Below are positions 61,282 to 61,833 of a stretch of 64,000 nucleotides of DNA, one piece after another. Below the pieces are notes generated by a model. That model worked only from the letters and a program-made list of their open reading frames with translations. It had not been told where the DNA came from and searched no databases. This DNA comes from Mangrovimonas sp. ST2L15 (GTDB lineage: Bacteria > Bacteroidota > Bacteroidia > Flavobacteriales > Flavobacteriaceae), in NCBI RefSeq assembly GCF_001280515.1, contig NZ_LBIQ01000030.1, forward strand, positions 1,568,501 to 1,632,500, given 5' to 3'. Numbering within the stretch: the stretch's first letter is position 1; the number at the start of each line of letters is the position of its first letter. The position numbers were made by a program, and so were the translations under genes.

Positions 61282-61289
61282 TATTTTTG
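61282..61289 (+). promoter_or_regulatory. -7 element of the tRNA-Pro transcript
   Basis: TATTTTTG is a perfect TAnnTTTG. It lies 14 bases before the CGGGATG of the broken tRNA copy, so transcription should begin at about 61296, run through the GIY-YIG gene and reach the intact tRNA. No separate promoter is visible directly before the intact tRNA. Confidence 0.5.
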
Positions 61290-61302
61290 TACCCCTATAA
61301 TT

Positions 61303-61384
61303 CGGGATGTGGCCTCTCGACTACGCTCGAGACAAGCTTCCTTCCGGTTAGCGTATTCCGCCAATAGCGGAATGGTAGCAGGTT
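61303..61384 (+). pseudogene. Broken tRNA-Pro copy
   Basis: CGGGATGTGGC (61303-61313) equals the 5' end of the intact tRNA. Then the palindrome TCTCGACTACGCTCGAGA (61315-61332) intervenes, then TCCGGTTAGCGTA (61343-61355) of the D-arm resumes. A changed anticodon-like hairpin (TTCCG/CGGAA) and GCAGGTT of the T-arm follow, right before the GIY-YIG ATG. The 3' acceptor strand is missing, so it cannot fold as a tRNA. Confidence 0.75.
61315..61332. repeat. TCTCGACTACGCTCGAGA palindrome inside the broken tRNA copy
   Basis: Six-base perfect arms TCTCGA/TCGAGA around CTACGC. The same core, with one base changed, is at 42338-42358 in the VWA-MoxR spacer. It separates the two preserved parts of the broken tRNA. 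Confidence 0.7.
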
Positions 61385-61621
61385 ATGGGACACTATGTAT
61401 ACATACTTTGGAGTGAATCGTTAGGAAGGTATTATTGTGTGGAATCCAAAGATGTAGATAACCGATTGTTGGTTCATAATAAAGGTGGGAATAAATATAC
61501 CACTAAAGGAATTCCTTGGAAACTTCAAGAAGTTTTTGAGGTTTCTAATCGCTCTGAAGCGAGAAAACTTGAAAATAAAATAAAGAAGCGAGGTATTAAA
61601 CGTTTTCTTGAAGATAGATAA
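61385..61621 (+). CDS. Small GIY-YIG-like protein lodged in a tRNA locus
   Basis: 78 residues. HYVYILWSESLGRYYCVESKDVDNRLLVHNKGGNKYTTKGIPWKLQEVFEVSNRSEARKLENKIKKRG follows the small GIY-YIG family throughout. However, the glycine normally present in YYVGS is replaced (YYCVES), so nuclease activity is doubtful. The ATG directly follows the broken tRNA copy, and the stop ends 2 bases before the intact tRNA-Pro. The gene and tRNA probably share one transcript. Confidence 0.7.
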   Translation: MGHYVYILWSESLGRYYCVESKDVDNRLLVHNKGGNKYTTKGIPWKLQEVFEVSNRSEARKLENKIKKRGIKRFLEDR

Positions 61622-61623
61622 TT

Positions 61624-61698
61624 CGGGATGTGGCGCAGTCCGGTTAGCGTACACGGCTGGGGGCCGTGTGGTCGCAGGTTCAAATCCTGTCATCCCGA
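61624..61698 (+). tRNA. tRNA-Pro (anticodon GGG)
   Basis: A full cloverleaf: acceptor CGGGATG/CATCCCG with discriminator A; D-stem GCGC/GCGT; anticodon stem CACGG/CCGTG around loop CTGGGGG (anticodon GGG); T-stem GCAGG/CCTGT around TTCAAAT. CCA is not encoded. A pyrimidine at the first base is unusual but pairs with the G at the acceptor's other end. Confidence 0.93.
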
Positions 61699-61815
61699 CA
61701 CTTTAAAGCAAAGGTTAATGTAGAAAGTTTACTTTCTTAAATTAGCCTTTTTGCTTTATATGAAATTAAAGCAACGCTTTAATTTGCAACATAAGCGATG
61801 ACAAATCGATTCTGT

Positions 61816-61833
61816 AAATCCTGTCATCCCGAC
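61816..61833 (+). repeat. Duplicate of the tRNA-Pro 3' end
   Basis: AAATCCTGTCATCCCGAC is identical to 61682-61699, the T-loop/acceptor end of the intact tRNA. With TCTGT before it, it looks like the 3' remnant of another tRNA-Pro copy. Confidence 0.8.

Follow-up and report, generated by a model that had tools for sequence, protein, structure and literature searches.

Small GIY-YIG nuclease genes lodged between complete and partial tRNA copies in Bacteroidota: a tRNA-Pro(GGG) locus of Mangrovimonas sp. ST2L15 and its family

The window, a stretch of 64,000 nucleotides from Mangrovimonas sp. ST2L15, contains a 78-residue GIY-YIG nuclease gene between a broken and an intact tRNA-Pro(GGG). This anatomy is shared by a family of tRNA-lodged GIY-YIG elements: a typical member has a nuclease gene for about 77-98 amino acids, flanked on one side by a complete tRNA and on the other by a partial copy of it. 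They look like an overlooked family of tRNA-gene parasites. We favour, with fair but not strong confidence, the view that these minimal elements form a family spread across the phylum and home via tRNA homology arms, and that the copy in the window is one of them, probably inactive by now. The first-pass annotation had read the locus as a minimal element that enters a tRNA gene and keeps one copy functional, and this reading is supported with corrections. Two contrary outcomes were sought: relatives that all share the arrangement without an empty form, and an intact tRNA with its own promoter beside partial copies due to chance or tandem decay. Neither was found.

Results

Anatomy of the locus

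The only tRNA in the window is tRNA-Pro(GGG), placed at 61624-61699 by ARAGORN and at 61624-61698 by Rfam. A search of the whole assembly with this tRNA returned itself as the sole match, which excludes near-identical copies only, because the TGG tRNA of the genome also went unreported. The features of the locus are listed in order.

61282-61289, plus strand: promoter-like box TATTTTTG, fitting TAnnTTTG, the presumed old tRNA promoter; also found upstream of the empty tRNA in three congeners
61297-61302, plus strand: leader bases ATAATT, repeated before the intact tRNA (repeat search)
61303-61384, plus strand: broken 5' part of tRNA-Pro(GGG) with two altered arms (comparison with 61624-61699, folds)
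61314-61332, plus strand: hairpin 1, CTCTCGACTACGCTCGAGA, which with a 10-nt tail replaces D-arm GCAG (folds; same hairpin type elsewhere)
61356-61372, plus strand: hairpin 2, TTCCGCCAATAGCGGAA, in place of the anticodon arm (folds; covarying family of such hairpins)
61385-61621, plus strand: gene of a 78-aa GIY-YIG nuclease, YIG glycine replaced by valine (Pfam match, alignment)
61618-61634, plus strand: repeat of ATAATTCGGGATGTGGC, which includes the gene stop TAA at 61619-61621 (repeat search)
61624-61699, plus strand: intact tRNA-Pro(GGG), sole match found in the assembly (ARAGORN, Rfam, assembly search)
61700-61833, plus strand: gene-less 134-bp 3' insert with strong hairpins, ending in a copy of the tRNA 3' end at 61816-61833 (fold z -5.5)

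The repeat ATAATTCGGGATGTGGC had been described as present twice, at 61297-61313 and 61618-61634. These are the only two occurrences in the window at up to two mismatches (chance expectation 0.00). Compared with 61624-61699, the broken copy runs from base 1 of tRNA-Pro to the T arm and carries two substitutions. The first exchanges GCAG of the D arm for hairpin 1 and its 10 nt; a hairpin of the same type occupies this tRNA position in L012, L017, L055, L056 and L061. The second exchanges the anticodon arm for hairpin 2. As described before, the nuclease gene begins directly 3' of the remnant ending in GCAGGTT and ends two bases short of the intact tRNA, with its stop inside the second ATAATT copy. 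The open reading frame matches the Pfam family GIY-YIG (PF01541) with 42.8 bits at a curated cut-off of 22.6. The nuclease gene is free-standing: the adjoining tRNA is complete and no intron family reaches the Rfam gathering score in the window.

The 3' end of the tRNA, AAATCCTGTCATCCCGAC, had been reported to recur downstream. Two exact copies are indeed located at 61682-61699 and 61816-61833, 134 bases apart (chance expectation 0.01), and no further copy exists in the window even with two mismatches. The stretch 61700-61833 is better interpreted as an insert of its own, which lacks a gene, than as the other end of the GIY-YIG element. L026, L027, L059 and L060 also carry its core, GTAGAAAGTTTACTTTCTTAA, near tRNA-Pro. 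The T loop of the window tRNA-Pro (61682) reads TTCAAAT; it is TTCGAAT in three congeners.

Empty and filled sites

Comparison with relatives had been proposed as a check for an empty site. All three congeneric genomes compared have the insert-free form at tRNA-Pro(GGG). In each, the tRNA adjoins the same acyl-CoA synthetase gene (76-79% identical over the first 300 residues) and is preceded by the same TATTTTTG box, and the GIY-YIG gene is absent there. When the window flanks were joined, they aligned with the congeners up to and through the tRNA; the 3' flanks aligned poorly. A search match at E 0.01 inside the acyl-CoA synthetase gene (L010, L011) was discarded as spurious, being located within the coding region and not beside the tRNA. 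Congener G003 has, upstream of tRNA-Pro(TGG) at two loci (L012 and L017), a CTCTCGA...TCGAGA hairpin and a repeat of the tRNA 5' end with no nuclease gene. These gene-less hairpin inserts lie at the same tRNA position as the hairpin of the window.

Both states were also found at tRNA-Ala(GGC) of one large genus. Of 101 genomes searched with a filled site as query, 91 matched, and the best-scoring 30 loci comprised 15 filled and 15 empty sites; since these loci are the best-scoring ones and the query was filled, the counts establish that both states exist and are not a frequency. At a Ser-Pro-Arg tRNA cluster, the best 30 of 149 genomes were all empty, with gaps of 3-38 bp; best scores favour empty sites here, and the survey is uninformative on frequency. 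Several element-free tRNA-Pro(TGG) leaders in the gap between tRNA-Ser and tRNA-Pro (L134-L163) read TAGATAACCATTT or similar. Such leaders resemble the 3' terminus of nuclease genes at filled sites and may be a scar or an old target site. Taken as a pair, empty and filled sites point to entry of the elements into tRNA genes.

A family of tRNA-lodged nuclease genes

Relatives of the window protein were found in 47 of 149 genomes of its family, its own included. A GTDB species scan with 11 proline-type proteins returned 252 relatives; the best 80 were kept and all belong to Bacteroidota by their titles. With a valine-type relative as query, 239 of 395 genomes of the phylum matched, this one included, and not all of these matches are necessarily tRNA-linked. 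Four samples gave 180 loci: 30 from the window-protein search (the window locus included), the 80 best from GTDB, 30 from the valine-type search and 40 further places from the search of the window protein against its family. A tRNA was located within 250 bp in 153 of the 180, on the same strand in all 153, and a partial tRNA copy of at least 11 nt lay on the other side of the gene in 137. Removal of six repeats between samples left 174 distinct loci, with the window among them.

The suggestion that many small GIY-YIG genes lie beside a tRNA, with a partial copy opposite, was borne out by the distinct loci: 149/174 had a tRNA within 250 bp and 133/174 a partial copy of at least 11 nt on the other side, which speaks against chance as the source of the partial copies. 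For comparison, the genome has six other GIY-YIG genes, and no tRNA lies within 1.5 kb of any of them. Of the 25 loci without a tRNA, 12 were within 300 nt of a sequence end and 13 were not; two of the latter, L032 and L047, still show broken tRNA pieces. Clean open reading frames in the first sample coded for 77-98 aa in 28 of 30 cases. The other two were 36 aa, cut by a contig end, and 144 aa with a doubtful start. ARAGORN called some broken copies within these counts as tRNAs, namely SeC (L036), Stop (L205) and one Pro (L084); automatic tRNA counts at such places may therefore be inflated.

Two layouts were distinguished. Class A, the window type, has a broken 5' part, the gene and the intact tRNA. 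Class B has the intact tRNA, usually a terminator-like hairpin, the gene and a broken 3' part, often with a copy of the terminator. Targets include tRNAs for Pro, Val, Asn, Ala, Arg, Asp, His, Phe, Met, Ser and Leu. Tandem arrangements with two or more gene copies occur in 43 of the 174 loci. Tandem units are about 300-390 bp long, with a spacing of 304 bp in L019, 349 bp in L026 and, judged by the match positions, about 315-391 bp in other genomes.

Each nuclease clade is for the most part faithful to a single tRNA. On a protein tree there are 26 changes of the target label, compared with 63.5 in shuffles (0/200 as low), and six of the class label. The tree is a quick one with few columns from 106 proteins (103 different); its shuffles ask only for clustering of labels, which near-copies help, and the place of the window protein is weak. 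Some clades switch target, for example between Pro GGG and TGG. At the genus level, the tree looks largely vertical, with elements of Arenibacter, Dyadobacter and Lacibacter grouping by host, and horizontal movement is thus not demonstrated by it.

Other GIY-YIG genes of this genome, with a different context, were noted. A second small gene (L002, 35607-35831, minus strand) has GTCATCCTGAACTTG-type repeats on both sides and no tRNA within 1.5 kb. A third (L001:1393-1754) lies between two TCTCGACTGCGCTCGA palindromes, a type also present in the broken tRNA of the window.

Hairpins in the broken tRNA copies

In the partial tRNA copies, foreign hairpins often take the place of one or more arms. 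Within 100 nt on the broken side, 73 of 81 class A loci had a perfect stem of 6 bp or longer, an enrichment partly due to the tRNA's own arms because 61 of the 81 intact tRNAs also reach 6 bp. The class B count, 39 of 44, includes terminators; 12 of the 44 intact tRNAs have such a stem. Shuffles gave an expectation of 11.1 for class A and 6.7 for class B; a control stretch at a distance of 600 nt gave 10 and 8.

The proline-type hairpin replaces the anticodon arm or the T arm. Its apex is almost fixed and its lower stem covaries. Paired cells amounted to 98.6% (shuffled 87.2), cells with double changes to 34 (shuffled 10.9) and the covariation score to 0.354 (shuffled 0.134), each reached by 0/500 shuffles. 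Two of the five measures stayed within the shuffles: pairs changed on both sides (3; 155/500) and further pair types (8; 57/500). The alignment was built from 43 + 36 rows extracted by their flanks, less 11 + 5 mis-extractions and the odd-length hairpins of L025, L085 and L123; 41 distinct sequences were kept. Extraction failed for 21 of 90 source loci, including the window's own (L018), whose hairpin was added.

Similar hairpins were searched in 12 genomes. In G029 and G128 the proline-type pattern TCACGCYNNNRGCGTGA is confined to the arrays, whereas G103 and G021 have it at other places and G133 has it next to a GIY-YIG gene; it is absent from the seven other genomes scanned. The palindrome TCCCGATAGCTATCGGGA is dispersed in 9 of 12 genomes, with 48 copies in G079 (reversed control 0), and also adjoins some element genes.

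Promoter position

The first-pass annotation had proposed that the promoter was displaced to the front of the broken copy. In the window, the promoter-like box TATTTTTG lies there (61282-61289) and no such box is found in the 60 bases upstream of the intact tRNA. Its pattern TAnnTTTG is what we take to be the Bacteroidetes -7 box. The idea also fits the family. Of 52 class A loci, 28 have a TAnnTTTG box in the 60 nt upstream of the broken copy and 3 have one in the 60 nt upstream of the intact tRNA; for the intact tRNA of class B the count is 21 of 47. The stop codon of class A nuclease genes lies inside the tRNA in 48 of 80 loci and at most 20 nt before it in 28 more, counted from a single open frame, with eight loci lacking one clear frame left out. 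Because the box precedes the broken copy and the stop codons lie in or near the tRNA, the intact tRNA probably relies on transcription through the nuclease gene. Joint transcription of nuclease and tRNA is what these positions suggest.

The protein and its selection

The protein of L019 was modelled (pLDDT 90) as a bare GIY-YIG domain. Its best match in the PDB was the UPF0213 protein BH0048 (1zg2, E 2e-4), followed by Slx1 (E 0.009). These single-domain UPF0213 proteins, kin of YhbQ/YazA, and Slx1 are the nearest solved folds; in titles and abstract starts of the open-access literature, neither is described as lodged in tRNA genes. The proteins of the family appear to consist of the GIY-YIG domain alone, leaving no space for an additional DNA-binding domain.

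In an alignment of 11 proteins, the glycine of the YIG motif is conserved in 10 and is a valine in the window protein. The Tyr, Arg, His and Glu positions are invariant, also in the window protein. The SegB mutants Y17A/G19A and Y17F/G19A are dead according to the accessible part of the SegB report (PMC13096335). Because of the Gly to Val exchange and these Tyr17 and Gly19 double mutants, the nuclease copy in the window is probably inactive.

Across 41 congeneric pairs, dN/dS was 0.04-0.66, and 0.04-0.41 in 40 of them. The broken copies are conserved to different degrees. They differ at 0-1 of 44 nt in Dyadobacter (pS to 0.61), 1 of 44 nt in Lacibacter (pS to 0.11), 1-4 of 68 nt in Winogradskyella (pS to 0.52) and 1-7 of 66-68 nt in Arenibacter GGG elements; Eudoraea was unreadable and is excluded. 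In Arenibacter TGG elements the differences go up to 43 of about 109 nt, with 41-43 between copies that have additional hairpins and copies that lack them. Either constraint or gene conversion from the intact tRNA may underlie the conservation.

Discussion

Homing as the preferred explanation

Most likely, the elements are homing-type parasites that use the tRNA as homology arms. The nuclease would cut the tRNA gene of an element-free allele near the arm that the hairpin replaces. Repair would copy the element in, with homology arms provided by the partial copy and by the complete tRNA. With two arms derived from the tRNA, a working tRNA would always be rebuilt, and the element could move between hosts that share only that tRNA. 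The hairpin would strip the partial copy of the cut site and of the tRNA fold. Occasional self-cutting with misaligned repair could yield the tandem arrays, and an essential tRNA read through the nuclease gene would shield the element from simple loss. Cutting and mobility are proposed here from sequence patterns. Empty and filled sites, tRNA linkage, clustering of targets, tandem copies, hairpin covariation, the position of the promoter box and dN/dS agree with homing, for which phage SegB offers a precedent. Some observations argue against it. The intact tRNA of the filled allele should also be cut, and its escape is unexplained. The proteins look like single domains, 13 of the 174 loci have no tRNA within 250 bp despite their distance from sequence ends, the elements look largely vertical within genera, two of the five covariation measures stay within the shuffles and the window protein has lost the YIG glycine.

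Known systems

SegB is a phage gene product with further domains. The closest tested relative is this free-standing GIY-YIG homing endonuclease in the tRNA region of T-even phages (PMC13096335). According to the accessible part of that report, SegB cuts inside tRNA genes, and its nuclease activity is required for tandem amplification of a tRNA together with segB. A GIY-YIG nuclease beside tRNA genes, a tandem unit of tRNA and nuclease gene and a microhomology between the tRNA 5' end and the nuclease gene 3' end are common to both systems. The SegB repeat unit is 718 bp, compared with about 300-390 bp in Bacteroidota. SegB favours no particular tRNA isotype, whereas the Bacteroidota clades are chromosomal and largely tRNA-specific. 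The hairpin-altered partial tRNA copy is a feature of the Bacteroidota elements that is not described for SegB in that part of the source (PMC13096335).

By sequence, the window protein does not group with SegB: it had no PHROG or NCBIfam match at E 0.01. L019 and L046 matched models of homing or intron endonucleases weakly, with scores under the NCBIfam cut-off. A group I intron endonuclease was rejected, as Rfam at gathering score finds the tRNA alone in the window. For the fungal mitogenome of Endoconidiophora, the accessible text describes C-terminal partial copies of atp6 and cob near GIY-YIG or LAGLIDADG ORFs, downstream of the gene (PMC6279837). That case concerns protein genes in mitochondria, unlike the tRNA targets in Bacteroidota, and the same text neither mentions hairpin arms nor states the endonuclease as the cause of the duplication; it is an analogy only. 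Within titles and abstract starts of the open-access literature, chromosomal tRNA-lodged GIY-YIG elements of Bacteroidota are undescribed; most subscription papers and bioRxiv were outside the scope of this search.

Other explanations

The hairpins may also be read as the site of transposition. Much like the transposases of IS200/IS605 or REP/RAYT, the GIY-YIG protein would then transpose DNA by acting on single-stranded hairpins; element hairpin and tRNA arm would be equivalent substrates, and the insert would enter next to the arm. We regard this as unlikely, though it is the best of the alternatives. As far as the available descriptions go, these systems are likewise small, with hairpins at the insertion junction and gene-less derivatives. 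Many proline-type partial copies end where an arm starts and continue with a hairpin, whose apex is nearly invariant above a covarying lower stem. Gene-less hairpins with duplicated tRNA ends exist at the two G003 loci (L012, L017), a dispersed palindrome (up to 48 copies per genome, reversed control 0) lies beside some element genes, and Slx1, a branched-DNA nuclease by PDB titles, is among the structural neighbours. However, the hairpins vary from one tRNA type to another and may occupy the D, anticodon or T arm, and in G029 and G128 the proline-type pattern is confined to the arrays. GIY-YIG enzymes are not known to rejoin DNA. By the same descriptions, IS200/IS605 and REP/RAYT carry an HUH transposase; the elements carry a GIY-YIG gene. 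IS200/IS605 or REP/RAYT elements proper were rejected, since the GIY-YIG gene is the sole family-matched ORF between the repeats and the other ORFs are short or antisense.

A function kept by the host is less probable still. The nuclease gene and its tRNA-like leader would serve the host, for example in tRNA dosage by amplification or in tRNA processing, and be inherited vertically. Purifying selection on the gene, the vertical look within genera and broken copies that differ at only 0-4 of 44-68 nt in Dyadobacter and Winogradskyella at pS up to 0.61 would fit. The patchy presence (47/149 family genomes; empty sites at 15 of the best-scoring 30 loci in one genus), the choice of different tRNAs by different clades and the 41-43 differences in about 109 nt of Arenibacter TGG copies do not.

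Ordinary tandem tRNA duplication and decay next to a chance GIY-YIG neighbour is very improbable: gene-less partial tRNA repeats do occur downstream of tRNAs as well, but the family counts contradict it, with 149/174 loci tRNA-linked, always on the same strand, 133/174 with partial copies, no linkage for the six other GIY-YIG genes of this genome and tRNA labels clustered on the tree. We give the least credence to the footprint of a tRNA-integrating island or phage with the repeats as attachment sites; the duplicated tRNA 3' end at 61816-61833 would suit it, and the 3' insert may still be one, but for the GIY-YIG insert it is contradicted by flanking repeats that are tRNA 5' ends, by ORFs between them that are all below integrase size and by the lack of matches at E 1e-5 for the window protein in 50,697 annotated phage records and for its relative L019 in 72,556 plasmid records. 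An origin from known phages or plasmids was rejected on the same searches; a scan of viral contigs returned six relatives that were partial or at 30% identity.

Implications

Homing via the tRNA thus remains the preferred reading. It is conceivable, on balance slightly doubtful, that these elements form a class of mobile DNA in its own right: minimal tRNA-gene parasites with a single GIY-YIG domain, one tRNA per lineage, a hairpin-edited portable homology arm and an essential tRNA that is rebuilt on entry and put under the element's own transcript. If this is true, such elements, spread over Bacteroidota, would rank among the main sources of partial tRNA copies and of tandem tRNA repeats in this phylum. 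They would explain the tiny GIY-YIG genes beside broken tRNA pieces in many Bacteroidota genomes. This raises the question of how a 78-residue single-domain nuclease finds one tRNA gene, and the natural pairs of empty and filled sites provide a setting for testing tRNA-targeted homing. The family would show how a parasite lives inside an essential RNA gene without breaking it.
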